Shown here: positions 16,224 through 35,113 of the stretch, one piece after another | Numbering within the stretch: position 1 is the stretch's first letter | Layout: each line of letters opens with the position of its first letter | Assembly: GCA_905235465.1 (NCBI GenBank) | Contig: CAJOLP010000004.1 | Location: 1-35,628, forward strand | Source: an uncultured Lachnospiraceae bacterium | GTDB taxonomy: Bacteria > Bacillota > Clostridia > Lachnospirales > Lachnospiraceae | DNA: 35,628 nucleotides | Reading direction: 5' to 3' | The notes under the pieces: model-generated | The model's input: the letters and a program-made list of their open reading frames with translations, nothing else | Told to the model about the DNA's origin: nothing | Database searches by the model: none | Program-made: the position numbers and the translations under genes

Positions 16224-16312
16224 GGGGATGCCAGGCAAAATTATGGTATACTTTTTTATGGCAGAAACTTGTACCGGGGACCGCATCCGAAGGCGGAAGA
16301 ATGGAGTGAGGT

Positions 16313-18739
16313 ATGGCAGATAATGGCAGGCCCAGAGGAAGAGAGCGACATGTAAGCGGCGTAGGATCCGGCGGAGACATCCGGGGAGAAGGCCTCGGGA
16401 CAGGACCGGTCGGCAGCGGCGGACATATGCCCGGCGGTTCGGGAGGAGGACCTCAGCGCAGCGGCGGCGGCGGCCGGCGGGGCGGAGGCGGAGGCCTCAT
16501 CTTCTTGATCATGGTCGTCCTTATGCTGCTGGGAGGCGGCGGAGGTCTCCTTTTGGGCGGCGGCTCCTCCGGAGGCGGAGAGGACGCATATCCCTCATCG
16601 GGGTCCGGCACCGGGTCCGGATCGATATCCGATTACTACGACGGCAGCGGTTCCTATTCCTACGGATGGGACAATGGCGATGCCTCCCACACAAGTCTGG
16701 ACACCACTGTGGCGGAGGGATCGCGCCTTAAGTATACGACCCTTCGGGGCGGCGGCAAGGATACCGTCACGATCATGGTCTACATGTGCGGCACGGATCT
16801 GGAGTCCGGGAGCGGTATGGCCACCTCCGATCTGCAGGAGATGGCGGCCGCGAAGCTGTCGGACAAAGTGAATCTCCTGGTCTACACCGGCGGCTGCGCC
16901 AGATGGCGCAACAATGTGGTCAGCAGCAGGACAAACCAGATCTATCAGGTGACCGGCGGCGGACTAAAGCCCCTTGTAAAGGACGACGGGAGCGATTCCA
17001 TGACCAATCCCGACACGCTGTCGCGCTATATCCGCTGGGCCGCGTCCAAGTATCCGGCGGACCGCTACGCGCTGATCCTGTGGGATCACGGCGGCGGCTC
17101 GGCAGGCGGCTTTGGTTATGATGAGAAAAATAAGAACAGCGGCTCCATGAGCCTCTCCGACATCGGCAAAGCGCTGGAGAAGGGCGGCGTGAAGTTTGAT
17201 TTTATCGGCTTTGACGCCTGCCTGATGGCCACCCTGGAGAACGCGCTGATGCTGGACAAATACGGCGATTACCTGATCGGCTCCGAGGAGACGGAACCCG
17301 GCGTGGGCTGGTATTATACGGACTGGCTGAACGCCCTGAGCGCGAACACATCCATGCCCACCATCGAGATCGGGCAGAAGATCGCGGACACATTTGTGGA
17401 GGCCTGCGCGGTCAAGTGCAGGGGACAGCAGACGACCCTTTCCGTGGTGGATCTGGCGGAGCTCCATACGACTGTGCCGGATAAACTCAACAAGTTCTCG
17501 AAATCCATCAGCACACTCCTCTCCGGTGAGGATTACGCGTCGGTGTCGAAGGCCCGCAACAACACCAGGGAATTCGCGACGAGCGCGAGGATCGATCAGG
17601 TGGATCTGGTGGACCTTGCGTCCAACATCGGAAATACAGAGGGCAGGGAACTGATCGAGGCGGTTCGCGGGGCGGTCAAATACAACCGCACCTCCACGAA
17701 CATGACGAACGCCTACGGGCTCTCCATCTATTTCCCGTACCGCGCCTCCGCCAAATATGTGGATTCCGTGTCCGACACATACGATCAGATCGGCATGGAC
17801 GCCGACTACACGGCCTGCATCCGCGAGTTCGCCAGCATGGAAGTGTGCGGCATGGCGGGCAGCGGCGGCAGCGGCAGCCCCTACGATTCCCTGTTCGGGG
17901 ATTACGCCGGGGAATTTTCCGGCCTGGACAGCACCGGGAGCGATCAGCTGATCGGCCTGCTGCTGGGGAGCTTTTTGAGAGGGGATTACAGCAGAGTGTC
18001 GGGACTGGACGCGTCCAACGCATCCTTTGTTTCGGACCGCCCGCTCTCCGATGAGCAGATGAAAAAATATGTGCAGGACCATCACCTTGATCCCAACCAG
18101 CTGGGCTGGGTGAGAGAGGACGGCAAGGACAAGATCGTGCTCAGCGAGGACCAGTGGAGGCTCGTCACCGGGATCGATGAGAACCTCTATCTGGACAACG
18201 GCAGCGGCTATATCGATCTGGGCCTGGACAACGTCTTCAGCTTTGATGACAAGGGCAGCATGATCGCGGACAGCGGCAGGGCGTGGCTCGCCATCAATTC
18301 CGAGGCGGTTCCCTACTACCACGAGACAACCGTGGACGACGGGAAAAACTATACGATCACGGGGCGGGTGCCGTGCCTCATTAGCGGGCAGCTGAGCAAC
18401 CTGATCATCGTCTTTGACAACGATCATCCCGAAGGATATGTGGCCGGCGCCTGCGCGGATTACGGCAAGGAAGACGGCGTAAATGTCGCCGCCAAAAATA
18501 TCACAGACCTGCAGGAGGGCGACACGATCGACTATGTCTGCGATTTTTATGGCTATGACGGCTCCTATCAGGATTCCTACAAAAAGGGCGCGCAGGTCAC
18601 CATTAAGGACCCGGACAACCTGGATGAGGAGCTCAAAGTCAGCGACATACAGTTCTATGACAGCGAGCGCACGGTCATGACTTATAAGTTCACGGATATC
18701 TTCGGCAGGGATTACTGGACGGAAGCACTGAAAAAATAA
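16313..18739 (+). CDS. Clostripain-related cysteine peptidase (family C11) with Gly-rich N-terminus and TM segment
   Basis: TVTIMVYMCGTDLESGSGMATSDLQEM, YALILWDHGGGSAGGFGYD (His), DFIGFDACLMATLENA (Cys); N-terminal Gly/Ser-rich plus LIFLIMVVLMLLGGGGGLLL. Confidence 0.9.
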   Translation: MADNGRPRGRERHVSGVGSGGDIRGEGLGTGPVGSGGHMPGGSGGGPQRSGGGGRRGGGGGLIFLIMVVLMLLGGGGGLLLGGGSSGGGEDAYPSSGSGTGSGSISDYYDGSGSYSYGWDNGDASHTSLDTTVAEGSRLKYTTLRGGGKDTVTIMVYMCGTDLESGSGMATSDLQEMAAAKLSDKVNLLVYTGGCARWRNNVVSSRTNQIYQVTGGGLKPLVKDDGSDSMTNPDTLSRYIRWAASKYPADRYALILWDHGGGSAGGFGYDEKNKNSGSMSLSDIGKALEKGGVKFDFIGFDACLMATLENALMLDKYGDYLIGSEETEPGVGWYYTDWLNALSANTSMPTIEIGQKIADTFVEACAVKCRGQQTTLSVVDLAELHTTVPDKLNKFSKSISTLLSGEDYASVSKARNNTREFATSARIDQVDLVDLASNIGNTEGRELIEAVRGAVKYNRTSTNMTNAYGLSIYFPYRASAKYVDSVSDTYDQIGMDADYTACIREFASMEVCGMAGSGGSGSPYDSLFGDYAGEFSGLDSTGSDQLIGLLLGSFLRGDYSRVSGLDASNASFVSDRPLSDEQMKKYVQDHHLDPNQLGWVREDGKDKIVLSEDQWRLVTGIDENLYLDNGSGYIDLGLDNVFSFDDKGSMIADSGRAWLAINSEAVPYYHETTVDDGKNYTITGRVPCLISGQLSNLIIVFDNDHPEGYVAGACADYGKEDGVNVAAKNITDLQEGDTIDYVCDFYGYDGSYQDSYKKGAQVTIKDPDNLDEELKVSDIQFYDSERTVMTYKFTDIFGRDYWTEALKK

Positions 18740-18760
18740 GGAAAATCAGCAGGAAGGCTT

Positions 18761-19678
18761 TTGGCAGACAGGCGTATGGCGAATCAAAAGAAGCGGGTGT
18801 ATAGATCCGCGGGAGTACACTACTCGAAAAATACCATAAATAAGAGCGCGAATAAGAGCGCGGGCAGGAGCGGTGCGTCTGCCGTGATGATCACCTGCCC
18901 GCAGTGCGGCGCGGAATATGAGGCCGGACTTCTCCGCTGCCCCTACTGCAAGTCGGTGGACGACTATCAGGACGAGACGGAGTTCATGGGAGACATGGAG
19001 GAGATCCGCGGCAAAGTGGAGGACCTGCCGCAGGACTTTGAAAAGGAGACGGCGAAGACGGCACGAAAAGAGACCGCGCGGGATATGCACCGCATCTTCC
19101 GCATCGTCTTCGGGATCATCGTCGGCATCGTGCTCCTGTGCGTGCTGGCCGCCTTTATAGACACGAAGCTTCTGGGAAGCGAGGAGGATCAGCAGGAGAA
19201 GAGGCGGGCGGAATATCTCTGGAAAGAGGAGAATTACCCCCTCATGGACGATCTCTACGCGCAGCAGGACTGGGAGGGGCTGCTGTCCTTTGCCGATGAG
19301 GCGAACAGTTCGGCCCTGTATGATTGGGAACACTATTCGGTCATAAGCGGGCTCCGTAAGATTCAGGATATTTCTGCGTATTATATTAAGGAAGCGGACG
19401 AGGCCGCGGAAAAAGACGGAGCGGATTCTCAGAAAGCGCGGGAGGCAAGGACAAGGCTCTTTAGGGAGGAGATCTCCATACGGTTTTGGGAGTATCAGGT
19501 GAAGGACCCGGCGGACGCCGAGATCGTCAAGGGACAGGGCGCGGCGGTCCTTCAGGATCTGGATGAGAGATTTGCCCTGACAGAGGAGGAGACCGAGCAG
19601 CTTCGCACGATCGTGGCCAGATCCGGCGGGATACTGACAACCAAGGAATGTGAGGACTTTTTGGAGAGCAGAGAATGA
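18761..19678 (+). CDS. Zinc-ribbon membrane protein (unknown function)
   Basis: CPQCGAEYEAGLLRCPYCKS double CxxC ribbon; TM IFRIVFGIIVGIVLLCVLAAFI; TTG start with AGGAAGG RBS, or ATG at 18776. Confidence 0.72.
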   Translation: MADRRMANQKKRVYRSAGVHYSKNTINKSANKSAGRSGASAVMITCPQCGAEYEAGLLRCPYCKSVDDYQDETEFMGDMEEIRGKVEDLPQDFEKETAKTARKETARDMHRIFRIVFGIIVGIVLLCVLAAFIDTKLLGSEEDQQEKRRAEYLWKEENYPLMDDLYAQQDWEGLLSFADEANSSALYDWEHYSVISGLRKIQDISAYYIKEADEAAEKDGADSQKAREARTRLFREEISIRFWEYQVKDPADAEIVKGQGAAVLQDLDERFALTEEETEQLRTIVARSGGILTTKECEDFLESRE

Positions 19679-20529
19679 AATGTCAATATTGCGGCGGCGA
19701 CGTCTCGCTGGACGACCGCTTCTGCCCCTACTGCGGGAGAAGGGTCGATCAGGCGGAGCGCCATCAGAAGGAAATGGAGGCATACGAGGGCCGGTTTGAG
19801 GAGACCCGCGAGGAGGCCCTGAAGAAAGCGGACAACGCGGGCGGGGGCCTGGCGACGGCCGTGGGCATTCGCCTGGTGATCCTGGCCGTGCTGATCGTCG
19901 CGATGATCGTGATCGGGACCCGGTACGACTCGTATGAGGTCAACCAGCGGCGGCAGGAAAAAGAGATCACCACCAATGAGCAGCAGTATAAGGCGCTGAT
20001 CGAACAGCTCCTTGAGGACAGGGACTACGCGCAGCTGGCCGCGCTGGAACGCCGCCGGAACATAACGGATTCGAATCTATACAGCGATTATAAGTACATC
20101 ATTTACGCCAGTGACTACTACAACCGCGCCTATCGCGGACTTTTGGGGATCGCCTACTACAGGCCCGGGAGCGAAATGCCCTATTACACGGAGCAGCTCT
20201 CCAAATCCATCGCCTCATTTTATGACCAGATCTCGCCCGACTATTACGAGCGCTACGCCGCGAACCCGGACAAGACGAAAGAGGTGTTCGGGCAGATGGA
20301 GCAGCAAATGCAGATCCTGCTCCGCAGATACCTGGGCCTGTCCGAGGAAGAGGCCGCGTCGTTCAAAGATCTGTCCAAGAGCCGCCGCACGGTCATCATT
20401 GAATCGGCAGTGGATGAGGTCGTCAGCGGGACACCGGATGCCGGCACTGAAGCGCCGGAAGAGACATCGGATGCCGGCACTGAGGCGCCGGTAGGGATTC
20501 CGGATGAGATCGGGCCGACGGAGGAGTAA
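19675..20529 (+). CDS. Zinc-ribbon membrane protein (unknown function)
   Basis: MKCQYCGGDVSLDDRFCPYCGRRV; TM LVILAVLIVAMIVIGT; ATGA overlap with upstream gene. Confidence 0.75.
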   Translation: MKCQYCGGDVSLDDRFCPYCGRRVDQAERHQKEMEAYEGRFEETREEALKKADNAGGGLATAVGIRLVILAVLIVAMIVIGTRYDSYEVNQRRQEKEITTNEQQYKALIEQLLEDRDYAQLAALERRRNITDSNLYSDYKYIIYASDYYNRAYRGLLGIAYYRPGSEMPYYTEQLSKSIASFYDQISPDYYERYAANPDKTKEVFGQMEQQMQILLRRYLGLSEEEAASFKDLSKSRRTVIIESAVDEVVSGTPDAGTEAPEETSDAGTEAPVGIPDEIGPTEE

Positions 20530-20532
20530 AAA

Positions 20533-20991
20533 ATGGCGAAGTATAAGCGAAAAAATACAGCAAAGCCCCGCAGATCCAAGCTGCTGACCGCACTGAACGT
20601 CATGATCGGCATCGCGCTGGCGCTCGTCCTGATGGCGGTCATCGCGACCCTGTCGGACAACCTGGGCTCTTACTACAACCGAAAATTTGACGAAAGCTAT
20701 TCCTATTACAGTCTCCAGAACGGCGACTACGCACAGCTCGTGGAGGATTACTACGACAACTGGGGCATCTTTGGCGAGATCAAAAGCGGAAGCGAGGAGC
20801 TGGCCGCCGTGGCGGATTACGCGGACGCGGCGTTTCGCCTGAGCGCCTGCGAGAGAGAGGGCACGGCGGACGGCCGGAGCATTGTGGATGATTCTATTCT
20901 CACCGGGCTCAGAGAGAGAATGGAGAAGGACAGAGAGCAGATGGGCGTCTATCTGCCGGAGGCGGATAAGATCGACGGGATGCTCCGGTGA
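20533..20991 (+). CDS. Small single-pass membrane protein, ribbon-less relative of the two preceding genes
   Basis: 152 aa; TM MIGIALALVLMAVIATLS; QNGDYAQLVEDYYDN segment resembles DRDYAQLAALERRR of the upstream protein; RBS GGAGG. Confidence 0.65.
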   Translation: MAKYKRKNTAKPRRSKLLTALNVMIGIALALVLMAVIATLSDNLGSYYNRKFDESYSYYSLQNGDYAQLVEDYYDNWGIFGEIKSGSEELAAVADYADAAFRLSACEREGTADGRSIVDDSILTGLRERMEKDREQMGVYLPEADKIDGMLR

Positions 20992-20996
20992 CCGCG

Positions 20997-21025
20997 TTGT
21001 CATTTGCTTTAGAATACGATACAAT
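20997..21025 (+). promoter_or_regulatory. Candidate promoter for xpaC-telA pair
   Basis: TTGTCA - 17 bp - TACAAT (overlapping a TATAAT at 21025-21030). Confidence 0.55.
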
Positions 21026-21115
21026 ATAATGTGAGCGTGTTTTCGCGGAGCCCTGAAGCGCCCCCGAAGACAGACACAGGACAGACGCAGTTTCAGATGA
21101 CGGAACGGATGACAA

Positions 21116-22708
21116 ATGGATATTAATGATCTGTACGAGGCGGGCGGCGACATCATGGACGCCGTGAACGACGCCATCAAATACAATGATTATCAGAATC
21201 TGAGCGACTCGATCAAAAAGACGGTGAATGACGTCACGGAGGCCATCAAGAGGGACGTCCGCGACAGCACGGCCGATTACGCGGGGGGACAGGATGTCCG
21301 CCGCCGCGTGTACCGCAGCACCCGCGGTCAGGGGAATAGTTTTGACGACGATCCGGATGTCTATCGGCGCTATCGCTCCACGGCGCAGCGCGCGGGTCAG
21401 GGAGCGGCGCAGGGAGCAGCCGGGACCCGTAGAAGTTACCGGGTCAAGGATAACGCGTCCAACTTTTTCCAGAAGAAGATCACCAAGAGCAACGGGATCA
21501 GCCACGTTCTGGCGGGCGCGATCGGCATGGTGATCTTCCTGCCTATGGCGCTGTCCAACGCGGCCAGCTTCATCTTCAGCGGCGGCGGATTTGGCGCCGC
21601 GTTCGGTCTTTTGGCCACTACGATGATCACCGCCGCGTCGGCCTACGCCATCATGAACGGCCACAAGGATTCCGGCCTCATCGACCGGTATATGGAGTAC
21701 GGCAAGGTCATCGGCAACGCCGAGTATGTGGAGATCGAGAAGCTCGCGCGGGCCACCGGCAGGACCAGAGACGAAGTGCTGGCAGATCTGCAGAAGATGA
21801 TCGACAGCGGGTTCTTTAAGGAGGCGTGGATCGACGATCAGAAGACGACGCTGATGCTCACGGAGGAAGTCTACAATCAGTATGAGCGCCTGCTGAAGGA
21901 AGAGAGGGAAAGATTCAAGAAGCAGGAGGAGGAGATCCTGAGCGAGGACGCGAATCTTCCCGAGGAGGCGCAGCAGATCCTTCGGGAGGGGCGCAGCTAC
22001 ATTCAGACCATCCATCAGTTCAACGTCGATATCCCCGCTCAGGAGATGAGCGGGAAGCTGGATCAGCTGGAGGACACCATGCTCCGCATCGTGGAGCAGG
22101 TCCGCGAGCATCCCGAGAGCGCGGCAGATCTGCGCAAGCTGATGGGATATTATCTTCCCACGACGGTGAAGCTTCTGAGCGCGTACCGCGAGCTTGACAG
22201 ACAGGCCGGCAGCGGCGACAACGTGGTGAACACGAAGAGGGAGATCGAGGAGGCGCTGGATACGATCAATGAGGCCTTTGAAAATCTCCTTGACAGCATG
22301 TTCCAGGAGATGGCCTGGGATGTGTCGTCCGATATATCCGTCATGCAGACGATGTTCCGGCAGGACGGGCTGACCGGCAGCAGGATGCGCGCGCAGAGCG
22401 GGCAGACCACAGAGCAGAGGGAACAGCAGGTCTACGGAGCCAACGTGGGCCAGGCGGTAGGCGCCGGGCCGGGGCGGGAGACCGCGGCCGGACAGGCACA
22501 GACAGCCGGCCAGGCACAGGCGGCCGGCCAGACGCAGACAGCCGGACAGACGCAGACAGCCGGGCAGACACAGGAAGCCGAGCAGGAAAAGACATGGGAA
22601 GAGAGGCAGCAGGACGGTCAGGTCCAGTCCTCGGGCGGCGTGCAGATGCAGGTCGGCGGCAGTACCCTGGTATGGGGGAATGACTCCTTCTCGGAAGAGG
22701 AAAAATAA
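21116..22708 (+). CDS. XpaC-family protein (5-bromo-4-chloroindolyl phosphate hydrolysis family) with Ala/Gln/Thr-rich C-terminal repeats
   Basis: GHKDSGLIDRYMEYGKVIGNAEYVEIEKLARATGRTRDEVLADLQKMIDSGFFKEAWID resembles XpaC; immediately precedes telA; C-terminal AGQAQTAGQAQAAGQTQTAGQTQTAGQTQ. Confidence 0.78.
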   Translation: MDINDLYEAGGDIMDAVNDAIKYNDYQNLSDSIKKTVNDVTEAIKRDVRDSTADYAGGQDVRRRVYRSTRGQGNSFDDDPDVYRRYRSTAQRAGQGAAQGAAGTRRSYRVKDNASNFFQKKITKSNGISHVLAGAIGMVIFLPMALSNAASFIFSGGGFGAAFGLLATTMITAASAYAIMNGHKDSGLIDRYMEYGKVIGNAEYVEIEKLARATGRTRDEVLADLQKMIDSGFFKEAWIDDQKTTLMLTEEVYNQYERLLKEERERFKKQEEEILSEDANLPEEAQQILREGRSYIQTIHQFNVDIPAQEMSGKLDQLEDTMLRIVEQVREHPESAADLRKLMGYYLPTTVKLLSAYRELDRQAGSGDNVVNTKREIEEALDTINEAFENLLDSMFQEMAWDVSSDISVMQTMFRQDGLTGSRMRAQSGQTTEQREQQVYGANVGQAVGAGPGRETAAGQAQTAGQAQAAGQTQTAGQTQTAGQTQEAEQEKTWEERQQDGQVQSSGGVQMQVGGSTLVWGNDSFSEEEK

Positions 22709-22769
22709 GCGGGAAACGCTTATGATAGAGCGGAACTGAAATAAACCAGCACATAGATGGGAGAAAATT

Positions 22770-23966
22770 ATGGCAGAAGAGAAAATGGGCGGAAGCTTTG
22801 GCGAGTCGGCAGTACAGGCAGATCCGTTTGAGGGCTTTTCGGACAGCGCGCCCACACTGACGTTTGACGCGGAGGAGATGGTGCAGGCCCAGACAGCGCC
22901 GGCGCCCCAGGGGCTCAGCGTGGATACAAAGGAGGAGGAGAGCGTGCTCACTCCCGAGGAACTCCGTCAGGTGGAGGATTTCTCCAAGAAGATCGACATC
23001 AGCAATTCCAAGGCGGTCATGACCTACGGGGCAGGCACGCAGAAGAAGATGTCAGACTTTTCGGAGAAGACGCTTGAGAATGTTCGCACGAAGGACATGG
23101 GCGATGTCGGCAATATGATCACAAGCCTTGTGACAGAGCTGAGGAACTTTGATGTCGACGAGAACGAGAAGGGCATCAAGGGCTTCTTTAAGAAAAAGAG
23201 CAACCAGATGCAGCAGATGCGCACCCAGTACGCGAAGGTGGAGACGAACGTCAACACCATCTCCAATGAGCTGGAGAAGCATCAGGTAGAGCTCCTCAAG
23301 GACGTGGAAGTTCTCGACCGCATGTACGACATGAACCTCAACTACTATAAGGAACTGACCATGTACATCCTGGCGGGCAAGTTAAAGCTCAAGGAAGTGC
23401 GGGAAAAGGAGCTCCCGGTCCTGCAGCAGAAAGCGCAGCAGACGGGACTTGCCGAGGACGCGCAGGCGGCCAAGGATCTGGCGGAGCAGTGCGACCGGTT
23501 CGAGAAGAAGATCCATGACCTGCAGCTGACCCGCGCCGTGGCGATGCAGACCGGACCGCAGATCCGCATGATCCAGTCTTCGGACCAGATGATGGCCGAG
23601 AAGATCCAGTCCACGATCGTCAATACGATCCCGCTCTGGAAGAACCAGATGGTCATCGCGATCGGCATCGAGCACGCGAACCAGGCGGCCAAAGCGGAGA
23701 GAGAAGTCAACGATATGACCAACGCGCTGCTGCGCAAGAATGCCGACAAGCTCAAACAGGCGACTGTGGAAAGCGCCAAAGAGTCGGAGCGCGGCATCGT
23801 GGATATCGAGGCGCTCAAGCATACCAATGAGATGCTGATCTCCACCATGGACGAAGTGCTGGCGATCCAGTCGGATGGAAAGCAGAAGAGAGCGGCCGCC
23901 GAGAAGGATCTGCAAAAGATCGAGGCAGAGCTTCGGGAGAAGCTGCTGCAGGCAAGCAAATCCTGA
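22770..23966 (+). CDS. Toxic anion resistance protein TelA family
   Basis: 398 aa coiled-coil protein; SNAVMTYG-type region (SKAVMTYGAGTQKKMSDFSEKTLENVRTKDMGDVG), MQTGPQIRMIQSSDQMMAEKIQSTIVNTIPLWKNQMVIAIG characteristic of TelA. Confidence 0.92.
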   Translation: MAEEKMGGSFGESAVQADPFEGFSDSAPTLTFDAEEMVQAQTAPAPQGLSVDTKEEESVLTPEELRQVEDFSKKIDISNSKAVMTYGAGTQKKMSDFSEKTLENVRTKDMGDVGNMITSLVTELRNFDVDENEKGIKGFFKKKSNQMQQMRTQYAKVETNVNTISNELEKHQVELLKDVEVLDRMYDMNLNYYKELTMYILAGKLKLKEVREKELPVLQQKAQQTGLAEDAQAAKDLAEQCDRFEKKIHDLQLTRAVAMQTGPQIRMIQSSDQMMAEKIQSTIVNTIPLWKNQMVIAIGIEHANQAAKAEREVNDMTNALLRKNADKLKQATVESAKESERGIVDIEALKHTNEMLISTMDEVLAIQSDGKQKRAAAEKDLQKIEAELREKLLQASKS

Positions 23967-24031
23967 GCGCAGGACGCGCAGGAGGTCAGAGAGATCGGAG
24001 CGCAGGGCGCTCAAAAGATGAGATACCAGGA

Positions 24032-24096
24032 CCGGGATCCCTTCAGGGAGGGAGGGATCCCGGGCTGAACGGACAGACAGGCTGCCGCGGGCAGCC
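24032..24096 (+). other. Two tandem hairpins in leader of first L,D-transpeptidase gene
   Basis: CCGGGATCCCT-N10-AGGGATCCCGG (24032-24063) and GGCTGCC-GCG-GGCAGCC (24080-24096), followed by RBS AAAGGAGCGG. Confidence 0.6.
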
Positions 24097-24109
24097 GAAA
24101 GGAGCGGAT

Positions 24110-25483
24110 ATGAATATGCGCAAAAGGATTTTGGGAGCGGCGACAGCATTAATGCTGGCGCTTTTTGCGCCTTTACCGCAAATTTCCTTTGTGGCAGGGG
24201 GAGTGACCGCGCCGGCAGGAGAAGTGACCGCGCCGGTGGTGAGTATGGCCGCGCCGGCCGTGGAGGCACAGGCCGCGTCAGCCGCCTTTCCGACCGTGAG
24301 CGGCAAGTGGAAAAAGACGTCCAAGGGCATGACCTTCGTCCAGAAGAACGGCGTCGCCGTGAAGGGGAAAATGGTCACCATCAAGGGCAAGGTGTACAGC
24401 TTCAGCGCCAGCGGCTACAGGCAGACCGGATGGGTCTCCTATAAGGGCAAGTGGTACTATATGGACGCCGGCGGCGCGGCGAAGAAGGGCTGGACCGAAG
24501 TCAAAAAGAAATGGTACTATCTGGATCCGAAGACCTACGCCATGCACACGGGGTGGCTCGCCCTGAACAGGGAGCGCGCATTCTACCTCAATAAGAAGGG
24601 AGTCATGCTGACAGGGCCCCAGACGATCAACGGGAAAGCTTATGTCTTTACCTCGGAGGGCGTTCTGAAGGAAGGCAGGGTCAGGATAAAGGGCAGGACC
24701 TACGGTTCCGCCGGCTTCTCCAAACAAAAGAAGAACAAGGAGGGCGGCAAGTGGAATAAGGTCGAGGATCGCTGGGTCTACATGAAGAAGGACGGGTCCT
24801 TTGCCAAAAACGAAAAGCTCAAGATCCTGGGGCAGTACTATCTGTTCGACAGCCAGGGATATATGGTCACCGGCTGGAAAAAGGTGAACGGGAAGTGGTA
24901 TTACGCGGGATCTGACGGGGTGCTGGCCGTAAACTGCTGGAAAAAGATCGATCACGAGGAGTACTATTTTTACAAGGACGGCCATATGGCGGCGAACACC
25001 ACGGTGGACGGCGCCAAGATCCTGGCCAGCGGCGCCAAATACCGGAAGAAGCCCGCGATCGGGGATTCCATCGACGAGAAGGCGCAGGGGTATGAGAGCT
25101 CCACGGACTATCTGATCCTGGTCAACAAGAGTCTCCACAAAGTGGGGATCTATAAGGGCGAGAAGGGATACTGGAACAATATCCGCAAGGTCCTGTGCGG
25201 CGACGGCAAACCTTCGACGCCCACCATCGAGGGAAGCTTTGTTGTGGGACTGAAGATGCGGTATTTTGACTCGGGCGCCGCCAGATGCTGGTACGCCACG
25301 CAGTTTTGCGGCAATTTCCTGTTCCACTCGGTCCTTTATTACCAGACGCAGGCGCCCACCTATGTGATGGACGGCAGAGTCGGGGCGGGCGTATCCCACG
25401 GCTGCGTGCGGCTGCAGCTCGACGACTGTCTGTGGATCTACAATAATATCCCGCGGGGAACCAGAGTGATCGTCTACAGATAA
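24110..25483 (+). CDS. L,D-transpeptidase (YkuD) with N-terminal cell-wall-binding repeats
   Basis: Signal peptide; repeats (GKWYYMDAGGAAKKGWTEVKKKWYYLD...); YkuD domain with FHSVLYYQ and VSHGCVRLQ. Confidence 0.88.
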   Translation: MNMRKRILGAATALMLALFAPLPQISFVAGGVTAPAGEVTAPVVSMAAPAVEAQAASAAFPTVSGKWKKTSKGMTFVQKNGVAVKGKMVTIKGKVYSFSASGYRQTGWVSYKGKWYYMDAGGAAKKGWTEVKKKWYYLDPKTYAMHTGWLALNRERAFYLNKKGVMLTGPQTINGKAYVFTSEGVLKEGRVRIKGRTYGSAGFSKQKKNKEGGKWNKVEDRWVYMKKDGSFAKNEKLKILGQYYLFDSQGYMVTGWKKVNGKWYYAGSDGVLAVNCWKKIDHEEYYFYKDGHMAANTTVDGAKILASGAKYRKKPAIGDSIDEKAQGYESSTDYLILVNKSLHKVGIYKGEKGYWNNIRKVLCGDGKPSTPTIEGSFVVGLKMRYFDSGAARCWYATQFCGNFLFHSVLYYQTQAPTYVMDGRVGAGVSHGCVRLQLDDCLWIYNNIPRGTRVIVYR

Positions 25484-25618
25484 ATACGCCCCCGTATTTA
25501 TTTTTAGAAGAATTTGTTTTAAGTGTGGCGAATCAGGGCGGGGGAAAGTATAATAGTACTATGTGAAATAACCATTTTTGCTGGGGGTTTTAGATTCTTC
25601 AAACAGGAGGAAAAAGTG

Positions 25619-27847
25619 ATGAAGAAACGTATAGCGGCGTTATTGGCAGCAGCGCTCGTGGTCACTTCACTTCCGGGCGGAAGTGTCCTCGCGGCGGAAG
25701 CCGCGGCGGACAGCGCTCAGGAGAGCGTGATCACGGAAGAGGCTGTGGAGCAGGAGGAAGAGGAGCAGGAGCCTGAAGAGGAGGCGCCTGCCATCGAGGA
25801 CGAGACTTCCGAGGAAGGAGAGACCGTGGCACCCGCGGAGGATGAGGAGAGCGAAGACGAAGAGGCTCTTCCCGCGGAGGATGAGGCTGCGCAGGAAGAG
25901 GAAGCAGTCGAAGAGGAGAGCGAAGAGGCGGCTTCTGAAGAAGAGGAAGCAGCTCCTGCCGAGATCTCCGAGGACGAGGAGACCGCAGCCGTCGAGGAGG
26001 CTGTCGTCGAGGAGCCTGCCAAAGAGGCTGAGGCCGTCTCGGACGGCTGGGACAGCACCCACACATATTATTATGTAGACGGGAAGAAGGTCACCGGCTG
26101 GAGGACGATCAGCGGAGCGCGCTACTATTTCCAGGATGAGCGCATCAAGAACTATGTGGCGTCCAACAGAGGCAAAATGGTCTCCGGCTGGCGCACGATC
26201 AGCGACAAGAAATACTATTTCCAGGATCCGCAGATCAAGAATTACAGCAGCTCCAACAAAGGCAAGATGGTCTCCGGCTTTAGGACGATCAATAACAAGA
26301 GGTACTATTTTGTTGACGCTCAGTATCCTGCCAGCACCGCGACCGGCAAGCAGCTGACCGGCTGGAAGACGATCGGCGGCCAGAAGTATTACCTGGGCGA
26401 CGACGGCGTTGTGCGCACGGGATGGCAGACGATCAGCGGCAACAAGTTTTATTTCGGGACAAGCGGCAAGATGGCCACCGGGTTCACGAAGATCAGCGGC
26501 GCGACGTATTTCTTTGATAATGAGGATTACACTGGGTGCAGCAAGACCGGCAAAATGCTGACGGGCTTCAGAACCATCAACAACAAGAGGTACTATTTTA
26601 CCGATTCCAACTACAAAGCCTATAAGGCCGAGAACCTCGGCAAAATGCTGACGGGCTTTAAGACGATCAAGGGATCCAGATACTATTTCATGGATTCCAA
26701 CTATAAGTTGTACAAAGCCGCCAACAGAGGCATGATGATGTCCGGCTTCAAGACGATCGGCGGCAAAGTCTACTACATGATCGACAGCAACTACAATAAT
26801 TATAGGGACAGCAACAAGGGCAAGGTCGTAGGCCAGGGCTGGCAGAAGATCAAGGGATACTACTATTATTTCAACGGTTCAGGTGTGCGCCAGACAGGCT
26901 GGCAGTCCATCGGCGGCAAAGAGTATTACCTCATAGACAACAGATATATATCATACAGCACCTCCAATGAGGGCAGAATGGTCACCGGCTTCAAGACCAT
27001 CAGCGGCAATCGCTTCTATTTCTACAGCGATGGTTCGCAGCAGACGCAGTGGGGCGCGAAGAACATCAACGGAAGTTTTTACTTCTTTGGTGACGGACAT
27101 GTGATCCAGACAAAAACCGGCTGGCTCAGGGACGGAAGCGATTATTATTACGTCAATACGACCAGCGGCAAGCTCAAGACAGGGTGGCTGTCCCTCTCAG
27201 ACGGCACATACTATCTGAGCAAGGGTAACGCCAAGATGTTCAAGGGGCCCAACAAGGTAGACGGCACATTGTATTTCTTTGACACGTCCGGACGCCGCGC
27301 CACGACAGAGGGCTGGAAGACCTACAATGGCAACAAGTATTACAGCTACAGCAACGGCACGCTGGCGCACGACACGGTGATCAATGGTTACAGGATCGGT
27401 TCGGACGGAAGGGCCGTACCGATGGATGGCATGGACGCGAAGGCGTATGATACCACCAGCCGCACGAACTATCTGATCGTGATCGACCGCACCAACTGCC
27501 AGCTCGGCGTATATACGGGAAGTGTCCGGAACTGGACGCGCAGAAACAGATGGAGCTGCTCTGTGGGCAAGTCCTCGACGCCGACCTATACCGGCAGTTA
27601 TGAGATCTCCAGCAAGCAGACATACTTCGATTCCGGGTACGCGCGCTGCTGGTATGCTTCCAAATTTAACGGCAACCAGTTGATCCACTCCCAGCTCTAT
27701 GACCAGACAGACCAGCCGACCCATATCATGGACGCGGACGGAGGTCTGGGCCAGCACAGCACGGATGGATGCGTGAGGCTGTATATCGACAATGCCAGAT
27801 GGATCTATAATAACGTACCCAGCAATACAAGGGTAGTCGTCTACTGA
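25619..27847 (+). CDS. L,D-transpeptidase (YkuD) with acidic N-terminal region and long cell-wall-binding repeat array
   Basis: Start ATG 25619 after CAGGAGG (ORF open from 25523); signal peptide; ~110-aa Glu-rich stretch; many GWxTIxGxxYYF repeats; YkuD domain with LIHSQLYDQ and HSTDGCVRL. Confidence 0.88.
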   Translation: MKKRIAALLAAALVVTSLPGGSVLAAEAAADSAQESVITEEAVEQEEEEQEPEEEAPAIEDETSEEGETVAPAEDEESEDEEALPAEDEAAQEEEAVEEESEEAASEEEEAAPAEISEDEETAAVEEAVVEEPAKEAEAVSDGWDSTHTYYYVDGKKVTGWRTISGARYYFQDERIKNYVASNRGKMVSGWRTISDKKYYFQDPQIKNYSSSNKGKMVSGFRTINNKRYYFVDAQYPASTATGKQLTGWKTIGGQKYYLGDDGVVRTGWQTISGNKFYFGTSGKMATGFTKISGATYFFDNEDYTGCSKTGKMLTGFRTINNKRYYFTDSNYKAYKAENLGKMLTGFKTIKGSRYYFMDSNYKLYKAANRGMMMSGFKTIGGKVYYMIDSNYNNYRDSNKGKVVGQGWQKIKGYYYYFNGSGVRQTGWQSIGGKEYYLIDNRYISYSTSNEGRMVTGFKTISGNRFYFYSDGSQQTQWGAKNINGSFYFFGDGHVIQTKTGWLRDGSDYYYVNTTSGKLKTGWLSLSDGTYYLSKGNAKMFKGPNKVDGTLYFFDTSGRRATTEGWKTYNGNKYYSYSNGTLAHDTVINGYRIGSDGRAVPMDGMDAKAYDTTSRTNYLIVIDRTNCQLGVYTGSVRNWTRRNRWSCSVGKSSTPTYTGSYEISSKQTYFDSGYARCWYASKFNGNQLIHSQLYDQTDQPTHIMDADGGLGQHSTDGCVRLYIDNARWIYNNVPSNTRVVVY
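26060..27370 (+). repeat. Cell-wall-binding repeat array with mixed ~20 and ~30-aa units (coding)
   Basis: Units such as KMVSGWRTISDKKYYFQDPQIKNYSSSNKG, KMLTGFRTINNKRYYFTDSNYKAYKAENLG, KMLTGFKTIKGSRYYFMDSNYKLYKAANRG. Confidence 0.88.
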
Positions 27848-28049: not shown

Positions 28050-29768
28050 ATGAAACGTAGAGTGGCAATGTTATTGGCACTGGCGCTGACATTTTCTTCG
28101 CTGCCTGCCACCGGCGTGATGGCCGCGGACACAACGGCGCAGGAGCCTGTTGTTGAGACAGTGCAGGAAGATGAGGATGCGCTTACGGAAGAGACTGAGC
28201 AGGAAGAAGCGGAAGTCGCCGAGGAGGTCACCGAGGACAGCGCTGAGGGCATCACAGAAGAAGCTGTGGAAGAGCAGGAAGAAGCTGTGATCGATGAGGA
28301 AGCTGTCGCGGAGGACGAGGCGGACGAGCAGGAAGACGCAGCTGAGGCAGAGACTGTCGAGGAGGCAGCCCCCGCTGAGGAGCTGGAGATCGTCGAAGAA
28401 CAGATCGTAGAGGAAGATGCCAAGGATATCCTTGAAGTCGTAGACGGCTGGGACAGCACCCACACACACTATTATGTGAACGGGCAGATGATCAAGGGCC
28501 GCTTTAAGGACATCGGAAACGCGCGCTATTACTTTGACGACAAAGGCAAGATGGCCACGGGCTTTAGGACTATCAACGGCGCCAGGTACTACTTCCAGGA
28601 TGAGAGAGTGGCCGGTTTCTCCGAGGCAAGCCGCGGCAAGATGGTCACCGGTTTCAGGACCATCAGCGGCACGGTATATTATTTCCAGAACGAGAACGTG
28701 GCCAATTATGTGGCCGGCAATCTCGGCAAGAGCGTTTCCGGATGGAGGACCATCAGCGGAAGGCGGTACTATTTCACAGATAAGAGCGTCCGCCGCACAG
28801 GGTTCATAACTGTGAACGACAAGAAGTATTATCTTGTGGACAGCAGATATCCCTCCAGCAAGTACACCGGCATGATGCTGACCGGCGTCAGGACGATCGA
28901 CGGCACCGGCTATCTTTTCAACGACAAGGGCGTTATGCAGAAGGGCTGGGCCAAGTACAACGGCGTATGGGGCTACTATGATCCCTCGACCGGCAAGGCC
29001 GGCAAGACCGGATGGAAAGAGAAAGACGGTGACTGGTACTACATGAGGAAAAACGGCCTGGCCACTGTCGGCTGGCTCAAGCTCAACAGCGAGTCCATTT
29101 TCTACCTCGACAAGTCCCAGGGCGGCAAGATGCTGACCGGCGTTCATAAGATGCCCAGCGGCAAGATCTTCTTCTTCGACGAGGATGGCCGCCGCGCGAC
29201 CACTGAAGGCTGGAAGAGTTTTGGCGATTACACATATTACACCCGCAAGGACGGTACCGTTGCGGTCAATACCACGATCAACGGCATCCAGATCGGCGCG
29301 GACGGCAAGGTCAAGGGGTCTCTGCTTGACATCAAGGCGGCCGGTTATTCCAGTCAGACCAATTATCTGATCCTCGTCAACAGAGGCGAGCACAAGGTAG
29401 CTGTCTTTAAGGGCAAGAAGAATAACTGGACCAAGATCAAGGGCGACTGGATCTGCACGATCGGCGCTTCGGCAACACCCACACCGGCAGGCGAGTTCAA
29501 GACCTACGGACCGACCGGCAGGACACAGTATGGCTGGATGGACTTCCAGTACACAAGTGCCGCGTTCTGCACGGGCGTTACAGCCGGATTCTTCTTCCAC
29601 ACATGGCTCTACACCCTCGGCTCCAGAGGAAATCCGTACTACACGCACATCGAGGATGGTGAGCTCGGCGTCAACCACTCCAAGAGCTGCGTGAGACTCA
29701 GACCCGAGAACGCTGAGTGGATCAGGAACAACATTCCTTCCGGCACGAAGGTCGTTGTCTACAACTGA
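28050..29768 (+). CDS. L,D-transpeptidase (YkuD) with acidic N-terminal region and cell-wall-binding repeats
   Basis: RBS AGGAGGG; signal peptide; ~100-aa Glu-rich region; DGWDSTHTHYYV; repeats; YkuD-like domain with FFHTWLYT and NHSKSCVRLRPENAEWI. Confidence 0.85.
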   Translation: MKRRVAMLLALALTFSSLPATGVMAADTTAQEPVVETVQEDEDALTEETEQEEAEVAEEVTEDSAEGITEEAVEEQEEAVIDEEAVAEDEADEQEDAAEAETVEEAAPAEELEIVEEQIVEEDAKDILEVVDGWDSTHTHYYVNGQMIKGRFKDIGNARYYFDDKGKMATGFRTINGARYYFQDERVAGFSEASRGKMVTGFRTISGTVYYFQNENVANYVAGNLGKSVSGWRTISGRRYYFTDKSVRRTGFITVNDKKYYLVDSRYPSSKYTGMMLTGVRTIDGTGYLFNDKGVMQKGWAKYNGVWGYYDPSTGKAGKTGWKEKDGDWYYMRKNGLATVGWLKLNSESIFYLDKSQGGKMLTGVHKMPSGKIFFFDEDGRRATTEGWKSFGDYTYYTRKDGTVAVNTTINGIQIGADGKVKGSLLDIKAAGYSSQTNYLILVNRGEHKVAVFKGKKNNWTKIKGDWICTIGASATPTPAGEFKTYGPTGRTQYGWMDFQYTSAAFCTGVTAGFFFHTWLYTLGSRGNPYYTHIEDGELGVNHSKSCVRLRPENAEWIRNNIPSGTKVVVYN

Positions 29769-30919: not shown

Positions 30920-30965
30920 AAAGACCTTATCCGGTCCTTAAGAGGAAATGGATAAGGTCTTTTTG
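30920..30965. terminator. Bidirectional-looking terminator between convergent rfbB and SMR genes
   Basis: AAAGACCTTATCC-N17-GGATAAGGTCTTTTTG. Confidence 0.85.
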
Positions 30966-30980
30966 TATCTGAATCGGGAC

Positions 30981-31349
30981 TCAGAGGCGGGAGATGATGA
31001 CGCCCAAAATGATAATGGCCACGCCGATCGCGCGCCGCCGGGAGACGTGCTCCTTCAGGATCAGGATGCTGAGCACGAAGACCCATACAAAGCTCGTCGC
31101 GGTAATGCAGGGCATTACGGAGACGGGGACATAGATCAGCGCCACCTGATTGATCACGAGTGTGGAGAAGAGGAGCGCATAGGACAGGATCACTCTCGGA
31201 TTGAGGAACTTGGCAAAAAAGCCGGATTTCTCCTCCTCTGTGATATTGGCCTGCTGCTTTAAAAGGATCTGGCTCAGGGCCGTCACAAAAGCGCCCAGGA
31301 TCGCCGCCGCGTAACAAAAGGTCGGCGTTATGATATTATTGATGTTCAT
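30981..31349 (-). CDS. Small EamA/SMR-like transporter subunit (ArnE/ArnF-like)
   Basis: 122 aa, four TM segments, ATSFVWVFVLSILILKEHVSRRRAIGVAIIILGVIIS; overlaps the next SMR gene. Confidence 0.75.
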   Translation of the reverse strand: MNINNIITPTFCYAAAILGAFVTALSQILLKQQANITEEEKSGFFAKFLNPRVILSYALLFSTLVINQVALIYVPVSVMPCITATSFVWVFVLSILILKEHVSRRRAIGVAIIILGVIISRL

Positions 31350-31698
31350 CGCTGATACTCACCACCATTCCGATTATGATCACAATAATGCCCAGGATCT
31401 GCTGCAGGGTGATCGTCTCGTGGAAGATCACGGTCGCCCAGACAAAGATCAGGATATAGCTGAAGCCGCGCCGCAGGTAGGCGGTCGTGAGCGGGAGCTT
31501 TTCCAGAATGAGCTGCCAGCACACGGCATAGAAGCACAGGATCAGGACCGCAACGCAAAACCAGGCGATGTAGCCCGGGGACATGAACGGATAGCGGGCG
31601 CCGAGCTTGAGGCAGGGCGAGGTCAGGCTCTCCATAAAGACCGCCAGCATCGCCAGCGCTATAATGTTTCGTCGTTTACTCAGAAAATCATCCAGCAT
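31336..31698 (-). CDS. Small EamA/SMR-like transporter subunit (ArnE/ArnF-like)
   Basis: 120 aa, four TM segments, LPLTTAYLRRGFSYILIFVWATVIFHETITLQQILGIIVIIIGMVV; overlaps the downstream paralogue by 14 nt. Confidence 0.75.
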   Translation of the reverse strand: MLDDFLSKRRNIIALAMLAVFMESLTSPCLKLGARYPFMSPGYIAWFCVAVLILCFYAVCWQLILEKLPLTTAYLRRGFSYILIFVWATVIFHETITLQQILGIIVIIIGMVVSISDEHQ

Positions 31699-31751
31699 TT
31701 ACAAAATTACTCCTGTTTCGATGGTATTTCCGGAGATATTTCCGGACAAAT

Positions 31752-32993
31752 TCATTCCCAGATCAGCGGGCAGACCGATCCGTCCGCCGTCTCCACATCG
31801 ACCTGAAGGGTCTTACGGATCTGCGCGGCGCGCGCCTCGTAGGTTTCCCTGTCCGGCGCGGTCAGTATGAGGCAAAGCCTCGATGTCTTGTCCGTGTGGC
31901 CCTCTTTATTTACCACCCCCACGCGCAGTTTGTCAAGCTGATTGCGGTGGACATAGGGGAGCGAGAGCACCTCGCTCACGCCGTCCACGCGGATCACTTT
32001 GCCGGTGGGAATGTAGAAGGCCATGTAGCCGCAGACGCACTGCTGCGGCAGGATCTCGGGGATCCCCTTCTGCCTGCCGGTGGCGATATCCAGCAAAAAC
32101 TGCTCGGTCTCAAGCCCGCAGGAATAGTGAATGAGGTCGGAGGAGATGAAGACGCCGCCGCCCCGGGCCGCGGTCTCCATGAGATAGATCTCGTCCCCGT
32201 CCATGATAAATTCGCTGTGGGTGATCCCCTGGCGAAGGCCGAAGCCGGTGATGATCCTCTCGTTCAGATCCAGTACCCGCTGCGCCAGCGCGTCGTCCGC
32301 CGTGGTCGGGAAGATCCTGCTCTTGGCGGCGAAGGCGTCCGGCAGGTCAAAATACAGCGTGTCGCCGATGCACAGGTTGCGGAATTCATAGTCCAGCGCC
32401 AGGCCCTCCACGACAAATTCGCGGCCGGTGGCAAAACGCTCCACGATCACTTCGCCGCCGGAGGACCAGCGGGCCGCCTCGGCGTATTTGTCAGCGAGTT
32501 CTCCCGCGCTGCGGCAGATCTGCACGCCGCGGCTTCCCTGGGTGTCAAGCGGTTTAATGATGACGTTTCCGCCGCCGATCTCATCGTAATAGGCCAGCGC
32601 GTCGGAAAGGGAGGTCACCGTGCGGTAGGGAAGGAGCGGGATGCCCAGCGCCGACATCTTTTCCCGCATGAGATTTTTGTCCGTAAAAAGGCGCCCGGTC
32701 TCATATCCGATTCCGGGCAGCCCCATTTCCTGCGCGACATAGGCCACGGCGCGGACGGCGATATCCGTCTGATCCGTGGTGACGCCGCAAATATGATTGT
32801 CTCGCGCGTATCGAAGGATCGCCTCGTTGTCCCGCACATCGGTCAAAAGACGGCCGCTGATGTAGGGCTCAAAAGCCTCAGAGACAACGGGCGCGGCCAG
32901 AAGTACCTCGTAGGACTCGCTGGCTTTCTGTACCAGCGGGAGTTGAAAATCACCGGCGCCGATGATCAGTATTTTGTCCATGTTCATCTCCAT
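31752..32993 (-). CDS. ATP-grasp domain ligase (carboxylate-amine ligase type)
   Basis: DKNLMREKMSALGIPLLPYRTV, NVIIKPLDTQGSRGVQI, VIVERFATGREFVVEGLALD, HSEFIMDGDEIYLMETAARGGGVFISS; start within 32981-32993, overlapping the upstream GT2 gene. Confidence 0.82.
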   Translation of the reverse strand: MEMNMDKILIIGAGDFQLPLVQKASESYEVLLAAPVVSEAFEPYISGRLLTDVRDNEAILRYARDNHICGVTTDQTDIAVRAVAYVAQEMGLPGIGYETGRLFTDKNLMREKMSALGIPLLPYRTVTSLSDALAYYDEIGGGNVIIKPLDTQGSRGVQICRSAGELADKYAEAARWSSGGEVIVERFATGREFVVEGLALDYEFRNLCIGDTLYFDLPDAFAAKSRIFPTTADDALAQRVLDLNERIITGFGLRQGITHSEFIMDGDEIYLMETAARGGGVFISSDLIHYSCGLETEQFLLDIATGRQKGIPEILPQQCVCGYMAFYIPTGKVIRVDGVSEVLSLPYVHRNQLDKLRVGVVNKEGHTDKTSRLCLILTAPDRETYEARAAQIRKTLQVDVETADGSVCPLIWE

Positions 32994-33969
32994 TTCCCGG
33001 CGCGGCGTCCGCTTTGCCGTAGATCTCCCGAATGACAAACTGGGGAGAATTGTTGAGAGAGATATATATCCTGCCCACGTATTCCCCGATGAGGCCCAGC
33101 ATGAACATCAGCATGCCGCCGATGAAAAGCAGAACGGACATCAGGGAGCTGTAGCCGATGGCGACGTTCGGGTTCAGAAGTTTGTGGATCACGGTGTAGA
33201 AGACCATGATGACGCCCAGAAAGGCAAATATGGTGCCGCAGGTCGTCGCCATGCGCAGGGGCTTGACCGAAAACGCGGTGAAGCTGTTCATCCACAGCGC
33301 GAAGGATTTGCCGAAGCTGTAGTGGCCCACGCCGATGGCGCGCTCGCGCTCCTCCATCTCCACGTTGACCACGCGGTTCGTGGAGCGAAGCATGAGGCCG
33401 GAGAGATAGGGGTAGGGGTTCTGATACTTGATGATCTCGTCTTTGACAAAGCGCCGCATCACGGAAAAATTGGAGAACTTGAGGTCCTTGTCCTTGCCCA
33501 GAAGCCAGTTCGCCACGGCGTCATTGACGGCGGAGCCGAAGTTCTTGAACCGCGACTGTGTCTTGTGCGGGTACTTGGCGATGGAGACGTCCGCCTGTCC
33601 GGTGAGCACGGGCTCCATCAGGTCCCAGAGCCTGTCCGTCGGGCACTGCTGATCGTCGTCAATGAAGACGATATAATCGCCGTCCGCGAAGTGACAGCCG
33701 CAGAGCAGGGCGTTGTGGCGCCCTCCGTTGGTGGCCAGGTCGATCGCGGTCACGGCCGGATCCTCCTTAGCCTCGCGACGGATCACGTCCAGCAGATTAT
33801 CCGGCGAGCTGTCGTTGACGGCGATGATCTGATAGGCGAAGTGCGGTCTTTGCGCGACCACCTCGCGGATCTCGTCGATGACCAGACCTACGGAGCCCTC
33901 GCTCTGATAGCAGGGAATGACGAAACTGATCAGTTCCCGCCCCTCTTGATGTATGGCGTCTATATTCAC
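32950..33969 (-). CDS. Glycosyltransferase family 2, polyprenyl-phosphate type (ArnC/GtrB-like) with two C-terminal TM helices
   Basis: ISFVIPCYQSEGSVGLVIDEI, IDLATNGGRHNALLCG, DYIVFIDDDQQ, and C-terminal LFIGGMLMFMLGLIGEYVGRIYISLNNSPQFVIREI. GTG start at 33969 with AGAGGA RBS is likely (ORF open to 34005). Confidence 0.87.
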   Translation of the reverse strand: MNIDAIHQEGRELISFVIPCYQSEGSVGLVIDEIREVVAQRPHFAYQIIAVNDSSPDNLLDVIRREAKEDPAVTAIDLATNGGRHNALLCGCHFADGDYIVFIDDDQQCPTDRLWDLMEPVLTGQADVSIAKYPHKTQSRFKNFGSAVNDAVANWLLGKDKDLKFSNFSVMRRFVKDEIIKYQNPYPYLSGLMLRSTNRVVNVEMEERERAIGVGHYSFGKSFALWMNSFTAFSVKPLRMATTCGTIFAFLGVIMVFYTVIHKLLNPNVAIGYSSLMSVLLFIGGMLMFMLGLIGEYVGRIYISLNNSPQFVIREIYGKADAAPGNGDEHGQNTDHRRR

Positions 33970-33970
33970 G

Positions 33971-35113
33971 TTATCCTCTCTTCCTGTAAAAATCGCGGAC
34001 GGCACTGATCACCGCCTCCTGATCCTCCTTTGTGAGCCCGTAGTACATGGGCAGACGGACCAGACGGTCGCTCTCCGCGGTCGTGTAGATGTCCTCCCCG
34101 TGGAAGCGGCCGAAACGCCGGCCGGCCGGCGAGGAGTGCAGCGGCACGTAATGGAAGACGCTGCTGATGTCTCTTTCCTTCAGATAGTCGATAAAGGCCG
34201 TGCGCTGTGCCAGATCCTTAAGCTTTAGGTAATACATGTGCGCGTTGTGCCCGCATTCCGGCGGAATGACCGGAAGCTCTACAAGGCCCGCGTCCCGAAG
34301 CGGCGCGAAGGCCTCGTGGTAGGCGTTCCAGGAAGCCAGCCTGTTCTCGTTGATGCGGTCCGCCTCCAGAAGCTCCGCCCAGAGGTAAGCGGCGTTTAAG
34401 TCGCTGGGGAGATAGCTGCTGCCGTATTCGACCCAGGTATACTTGTCCACCTGGCCGCGGAAGAAGCGGGCGCGGTTCGTGCCCTTCTCGCGCAGGATCT
34501 CCGCCGGCTCGATATCCGCCTCGTGATTGAGGAGGATGGCGCCGCCCTCGCCCATGGAGTAATTTTTGGTCTCATGGAAGGAGTAGCAGCCGAAATCGCC
34601 GATGGTGCCCAGCGCCCGGCCCTTGTAGGTGGACATGACGCCCTGCGCCGCGTCCTCTATGACCTTGAGGTGGTGGCGGGCCGCGATCTCCATGATCGTG
34701 TCCATCTCGCAGGCCACGCCGGCGTAATGGACCACCATGATCGCCTTGGTGTGGGGCGTGATGGCCTCCTCGATCTTTTTCTCATCAATATTCATGGTAT
34801 CCGGGCGGATGTCCACAAAGACCGGCGTGGCGCCTGTCAGGACCACCGCGGTCGCCGTGCTCGAAAAGGTGTAGCTGGGCAGGATGACCTCATCGCCGCG
34901 CTCGAGGCCGCAAAGCAGGCATGCCATCTCCAGCGCGGTCGTGCCGCTGGTCGTCAGAAGGACGCCGGGCGCGCCGAATCTCTTTTCCATCCACTCGCTG
35001 CAGGATTTCGTAAAGGGACCGTCCCCGCAGATCTTGCGATTCTCGGCGGCCTGTCTGACAAAACCGAGTTCTGTGCCGATATAGGGCGGTATATTAAACG
35101 GGATCTTCGCCAT
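33971..35113 (-). CDS. rffA: dTDP-4-amino-4,6-dideoxygalactose transaminase (WecE/RffA-like, DegT/DnrJ/EryC1 family)
   Basis: IPFNIPPYIGTELGFV, KICGDGPFTKSCSEWMEKRFG, VHYAGVACEMDTIM, VIEDAAQGVMSTYKGRALGTIGDFGCYSFHETKNYSMGEGGA, REKGTNRARFFRGQVDKYTWVEYGSSYLPSDLNAAYLWA closely resemble recalled enterobacterial WecE/RffA. Confidence 0.92.
   Translation of the reverse strand: MAKIPFNIPPYIGTELGFVRQAAENRKICGDGPFTKSCSEWMEKRFGAPGVLLTTSGTTALEMACLLCGLERGDEVILPSYTFSSTATAVVLTGATPVFVDIRPDTMNIDEKKIEEAITPHTKAIMVVHYAGVACEMDTIMEIAARHHLKVIEDAAQGVMSTYKGRALGTIGDFGCYSFHETKNYSMGEGGAILLNHEADIEPAEILREKGTNRARFFRGQVDKYTWVEYGSSYLPSDLNAAYLWAELLEADRINENRLASWNAYHEAFAPLRDAGLVELPVIPPECGHNAHMYYLKLKDLAQRTAFIDYLKERDISSVFHYVPLHSSPAGRRFGRFHGEDIYTTAESDRLVRLPMYYGLTKEDQEAVISAVRDFYRKRG

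Follow-up and report, generated by a model that had tools for sequence, protein, structure and literature searches.

A protease-to-telA gene cluster in an uncultured Lachnospiraceae bacterium may comprise two envelope transcription units from three evolutionarily separable parts

Adjacent xpaC and telA genes are known from Listeria (lmo1966-1967) and Lactococcus lactis (llmg_1115-1116), with XpaC and YaaN as the Bacillus subtilis representatives, and published work ties the pair to envelope stress. In the CesSR response of L. lactis, the values given for xpaC/telA are 10.3-fold and 3.4-fold (PMC3139573), the value linked to LiaR of Enterococcus faecium is 7-fold for xpaC (PMC10269926), and a Listeria lmo1967 mutant is 4-fold more sensitive to nisin and 2-fold more sensitive to tellurite, as reported in PMC12791056. 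A second set of described proteins, the cysteine peptidases of family C11 (clostripain, PmC11 and the Bacteroides enzymes 6n9j and iotapain, 6nag), has a caspase-like fold, a His/Cys dyad and an S1-type Asp; PmC11 has His133/Cys179 as its dyad and Asp177 in S1, cleaves itself at Lys147 and takes Arg or Lys at P1 (PMC4850288). Here we analyse a locus at which members of both groups stand together, in a 35,628-nucleotide (nt) stretch from an uncultured rumen Lachnospiraceae bacterium (assembly GCA_905235465.1, contig CAJOLP010000004.1, positions 1 to 35,628 of the forward strand), hereafter the window.

An earlier interpretation made from the letters alone (the sequence-only reading) had described a module of unknown function made up of six consecutive same-strand genes: a clostripain-like protease (C11), two zinc-ribbon membrane proteins (ZR1 and ZR2), a ribbon-less relative (TMX), XpaC and TelA. 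All six open reading frames (ORFs) were found where it had placed them, and they are not chance ORFs, since each gene is kept as a protein across many species. The gene identities also hold: Pfam puts C11, XpaC and TelA above the family cut-offs, and the ribbon cysteines of both ZR proteins are invariant. That reading had overlooked two conserved promoter-like elements that partition the six genes, three choline-binding L,D-transpeptidase genes directly 3' of telA, and the standing of ZR1-ZR2-TMX (the trio) as a conserved cassette in its own right. With these taken into account, the loose module can be replaced by separately testable parts, and we lean, by a little more than even chances, towards the view that the six genes are two adjacent envelope transcription units drawn from three evolutionarily separable parts. 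The genes and promoter-like elements are as follows.

16244..16252, + strand: extended -10 promoter-like element TGGTATACT before C11, the only TGRTATACT copy in the window
16313..18739, + strand: C11, membrane-anchored clostripain-family cysteine protease (PF03415, 146.8 bits)
18776..19678, + strand: ZR1, C4 zinc ribbon, one transmembrane (TM) segment and a predicted outer domain (ORF call, invariant cysteines, hydropathy); the start may be TTG 18761 or ATG 18776, the end is 19678
19675..20529, + strand: ZR2, C4 zinc ribbon, one TM segment and an all-helical outer domain (invariant cysteines, AlphaFold2)
20533..20991, + strand: TMX, short single-pass membrane protein without a ribbon, third gene of the trio (adjoins ZR2 in nearly all trio loci)
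20997..21025, + strand: promoter-like site TTGTCA-17-TACAAT before xpaC, 10/12 consensus positions, a pattern unique in the window
21116..22708, + strand: XpaC-like protein with two hydrophobic segments (PF10112, 41.6 bits; hydropathy)
22770..23966, + strand: TelA, toxic anion resistance family, without a hydrophobic segment (PF05816, 412 bits; hydropathy)

The division into two units rests on gene spacing and on the two promoter-like elements. Tight coupling within C11-ZR1-ZR2-TMX, as the sequence-only reading had it, is confirmed: ZR1 and ZR2 share an ATGA overlap at 19675, the ZR2-TMX gap is 3 nt (20530-20532), the C11-ZR1 gaps measure 7-80 nt, and in most relatives the two ZR genes either overlap or are almost contiguous. 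No conserved promoter was found before ZR1. Upstream of C11, TGRTATACT is present in 9/10 six-gene loci, and TGATATACT lies at most 150 nt 5' of the gene in 8 of the 9 six-gene relatives; none of seven sister-lineage C11 genes has the element. The site before xpaC keeps a constant spacing, an invariant -35 hexamer and a -10 hexamer of TACAAT or TAAAAT in every six-gene relative examined, whereas the 25 nt upstream of it are only 48% identical. These patterns suggest that C11-ZR1-ZR2-TMX and xpaC-telA are probably two transcription units.

We compared the locus with 36 other genomes of the genus and with named entries in the genome collection. The order C11-ZR1-ZR2-TMX-XpaC-TelA is confined to one group of the genus and occurs in 12 species including that of the window, nine with the six genes on one contig and three cut by contig ends; all are Lachnospiraceae assemblies, mostly metagenome-assembled genomes (MAGs). 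In quick trees computed without bootstrap, this group forms one clade, with a Shimodaira-Hasegawa-like approximate likelihood ratio test (SH-aLRT) support of 98 for TelA and of 100 for the concatenated trio; judged by these trees, the linkage of the six genes arose once, in one clade. Elsewhere the parts lie apart. C11, the trio and XpaC-TelA occupy three unrelated neighbourhoods with good flanks in two genomes (G029, contigs C32, C53 and C54; G010, contigs C18, C28 and C42), they lie on three contigs, short ones, in a third (G009), and in a fourth (G020) C11 is near XpaC-TelA and the trio elsewhere. The trio copies of the genus split into three separate lineages on the tree, and therefore the cassette was probably lost and gained, or moved. 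Since the order is kept in 12 species, conserved linkage is not lacking outright, but it is absent from sister lineages that hold all the parts. The cultured isolate Sarcina sp. DSM 11001, to which G029 probably corresponds, has every part at a separate locus, so that each could be deleted alone if the strain can be made genetically tractable.

ZR1 adjoins ZR2 in 41 of 42 ZR2 loci, TMX adjoins in nearly all, and the order is constant. A ZR2 profile matched 13 of 295 Lachnospirales genomes, and ZR2 of the trio was also present in Erysipelotrichaceae in a related-locus search of the genome collection; in a 399-genome phylum sample searched at E <= 1e-10, the trio was found in the window's genome and one of the same family, with none outside the order. 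Among the 294 order genomes besides the window's, 12 are ZR2-positive; TelA is present in only one of the 12 (5.1 expected; two-sided p 0.015) and a full-length C11 in three (1.4 expected, p 0.16), in tests that ignore shared ancestry and include some incomplete genomes. With 11/12 trio genomes lacking a TelA gene and 9/12 lacking a full-length C11, the counts indicate that the trio needs neither. No constant neighbour of the trio was found among the trio loci examined.

All three trio proteins are predicted to cross the membrane once. Both ZR1 and ZR2 contain a pair of CxxC motifs and a single hydrophobic segment, and TMX has one segment and no ribbon. We call ZR1 and ZR2 zinc-ribbon-like on their cysteine pattern because neither window protein reaches the Pfam gathering score (PF13240/PF13248: ZR2 23.6 and ZR1 15.5 versus 25 bits); C3/C6/C17/C20 of ZR2 are invariant in 40 sequences and C41/C44/C55/C58 of ZR1 in 34. 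The two are clear paralogs over most of their length (hhalign 99.5%, E 4e-23). The proposed kinship of TMX is plausible from its weak likeness to ZR2 (80% over 46 columns), but it is not proven, and the figure against ZR1 is 49%. The AlphaFold2 model of ZR2 is confident (mean predicted local distance difference test score, pLDDT, 85) and shows an all-helical outer domain that had no match in the PDB at E <= 0.001, and Pfam gave no family common to many members for the outer parts of ZR1, ZR2 or TMX. The trio is an undescribed, conserved set of three membrane-protein genes that lacks a Pfam family. Its proteins are ~36-49% identical between the window and the rest of the clade, compared with 57-64% for C11 and 72-76% for TelA; faster divergence is often typical of exposed domains. 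TcaA-type membrane proteins of Staphylococcus aureus likewise combine a zinc ribbon, one TM segment and an outer domain, but only this general architecture is common to both, the ZR2 outer domain being all-helical and without a PDB match; membership in TcaA (NF053815) was rejected at 15.8 bits against an equivalog cut-off of 550.

Several observations concern individual trio copies. An RfbB gene lies near three of them (L155, L156, L187) and also downstream of the window's cluster, and choline-binding GH25 muramidase genes are near the trio in L155. On contig C28 of a genome from another genus (G270), the trio and a full-length C11 lie ~31 kb apart. The MAG RUG13037 holds two trio types, six-gene and standalone (L165, L182), and two copies likewise occur in UBA3821 (L178, L180); double copies in one MAG could possibly reflect bin contamination. 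Genes near a few copies (GH25 muramidase, VanZ, class A penicillin-binding protein) were considered and set aside as too scattered to build on.

The first gene clearly belongs to family C11, scoring 146.8 bits with Peptidase_C11 (PF03415) against a cut-off of 25.8. Its N-terminus is Gly-rich, and a single TM segment around residue 63 is followed by a caspase-like domain at ~150-500 and a C-terminal beta domain at ~600-808; the membrane anchor and the ~200-residue beta domain set it apart from the described family members. Its AlphaFold2 model (mean pLDDT 75) matches clostripain 9cip with a Foldseek E of 1.6e-16, and other solved C11 enzymes match too. The dyad His259/Cys303 is present in 27/27 covered orthologs, and the alignment of 27 rows shows Asp301 and Lys272 without exception. 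By analogy with PmC11, C11 is predicted to be an active, self-processing surface protease specific for Arg and Lys, with which the latter two residues are consistent. The clostripain equivalog itself (TIGR02806) was rejected at 26.2 bits, far under the cut-off of 550. At five sister-lineage loci (L041:10816-11706, L042, L045:6901-7599, L046, L058), a 215-296-residue protein without a Pfam match follows C11; by eye, it resembles a papain-type cysteine peptidase.

XpaC and TelA match their families (PF10112, cut-off 29.8 bits; PF05816, cut-off 30 bits) and follow the gene order of the described pairs; outside the genus, xpaC adjoins telA in 19 of 20 TelA loci. A PDB sequence search with XpaC and TelA gave no relative. 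The window XpaC differs from the described proteins by a ~110-residue region before its first hydrophobic segment, and the locus differs in what follows telA, since choline-binding L,D-transpeptidases stand there in much of the genus. L,D-transpeptidases are peptidoglycan cross-linking enzymes that make 3-3 cross-links. The window contains three, together with a hairpin ahead of the first.

24027..24067, + strand: strong RNA hairpin between telA and L,D-transpeptidase 1, without a U-tract (folding)
24110..25483, + strand: choline-binding L,D-transpeptidase 1 (PF03734 and PF19127)
25523..27847, + strand: choline-binding L,D-transpeptidase 2 (PF03734 and PF19127)
28050..29768, + strand: choline-binding L,D-transpeptidase 3 (PF03734 and PF19127)

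These are half of the six YkuD genes of the window's genome. One to three such genes follow telA on the same strand in every member of the genus's derived half that could be tested, that is, in the six-gene clade and in sister lineages (L044, L126-L132, L134, L143), and in L143 and L044 telA and the L,D-transpeptidase gene overlap by one base. Within the genus, it is the L,D-transpeptidase that more widely accompanies xpaC-telA, which newly ties the pair to a specific class of wall enzyme and fits its published envelope-stress roles. The envelope-stress setting suggested for XpaC-TelA by the sequence-only reading is supported by the literature on relatives; a search of a limited set of papers for telA beside L,D-transpeptidases returned nothing relevant as judged by title.

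The reading that we prefer can be put as follows. Unit 1 (C11-ZR1-ZR2-TMX) would supply a membrane-anchored surface protease that cuts after Arg or Lys and activates itself, and a trio of single-pass membrane proteins that most likely form one hetero-oligomeric membrane complex, its zinc ribbons facing the cytoplasm and its helical domains lying outside the cell. Unit 2, comprising xpaC-telA under a promoter of its own, would be the known envelope-stress pair, in which membrane XpaC probably anchors soluble TelA and which may support wall integrity together with the downstream L,D-transpeptidases; wall integrity would then be the common theme of both units.

Several points weigh against this reading. 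The promoter elements, though conserved, are consensus matches; L037 gave no match to the C11 element and sister lineages gave none to the xpaC site, so that separate transcription of xpaC would hold for the six-gene clade only. Read-through from TMX into xpaC-telA may occur, and in the window the hairpin 3' of telA may uncouple the transpeptidase genes from the pair: region 23967-24109 (143 nt) has a minimum free energy of -64.9 kcal/mol, z -5.7 versus shuffles. The link of telA to L,D-transpeptidases occurs in none of the basal genus members, and no C11, trio or such L,D-transpeptidase was recognised alongside the 20 TelA loci outside the genus. The trio, whose neighbours elsewhere are by eye mostly housekeeping genes, may have no wall role at all.

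The most serious competitor is that the adjacency is merely historical, the outcome of one rearrangement without common function, with C11 acting on nutrients or other proteins and the trio unrelated to the wall. A single origin of the linkage, the separate distribution of the parts and the trio's lack of constant neighbours are all in keeping with this, but the stretch that runs from C11 through telA into the L,D-transpeptidases has remained unbroken while the trio diverged to ~40% identity and the flanks 5' of C11 were replaced by others, and we regard a merely historical adjacency as possible without being the likelier course. At the opposite extreme, protease, ribbon proteins and XpaC-TelA would act in one pathway, as a single six-gene signalling or proteolytic envelope-stress module. 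In its favour, the order is kept in 12 species while the flanks 5' of C11 vary, every part is a membrane or envelope protein, and full-length C11 and TelA co-occur across the order somewhat above expectation (22 genomes versus 15.0, p 0.017, uncorrected for relatedness). One promoter and co-occurrence of trio and TelA would be expected of such a module; instead, a second conserved promoter-like element, besides that before C11, stands upstream of xpaC, the linkage is confined to a single clade, the parts are unlinked in G029 and G010, and trio genomes outside the genus mostly do without TelA and full-length C11. The one-module proposal of the sequence-only reading thus finds no support, and we consider it improbable.

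It is possible, from adjacency in one clade, that C11 and the two ZR proteins act jointly. A dedicated C11 would cut the trio ectodomains near the membrane after Arg or Lys, maturing or switching the complex; likely co-transcription in this clade, the basic residues that both ZR proteins have immediately beyond the membrane, and the P1 preference of PmC11 (PMC4850288) agree with such a role. Yet 9/12 trio genomes of the order lack a full-length C11, and trio copies away from C11 carry the same juxtamembrane basic residues, which leaves the idea doubtful. We give even less credence to the trio being an undescribed sensor of Lachnospirales and Erysipelotrichaceae, with fast-evolving helical ectodomains outside, zinc-ribbon signalling inside and, in this clade, one promoter with a processing protease.

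Two further features of the window lie away from the cluster. Positions 13-1773 (+) encode a MATE-type transporter whose C-terminus carries a HATPase_c_2 domain (PF13581, 3.8e-6), an unusual fusion. Long ORFs without a Pfam match at 30948-34228 (+) lie opposite ORFs on the - strand, such as a DegT aminotransferase (33971-35113), and are probably antisense shadows.

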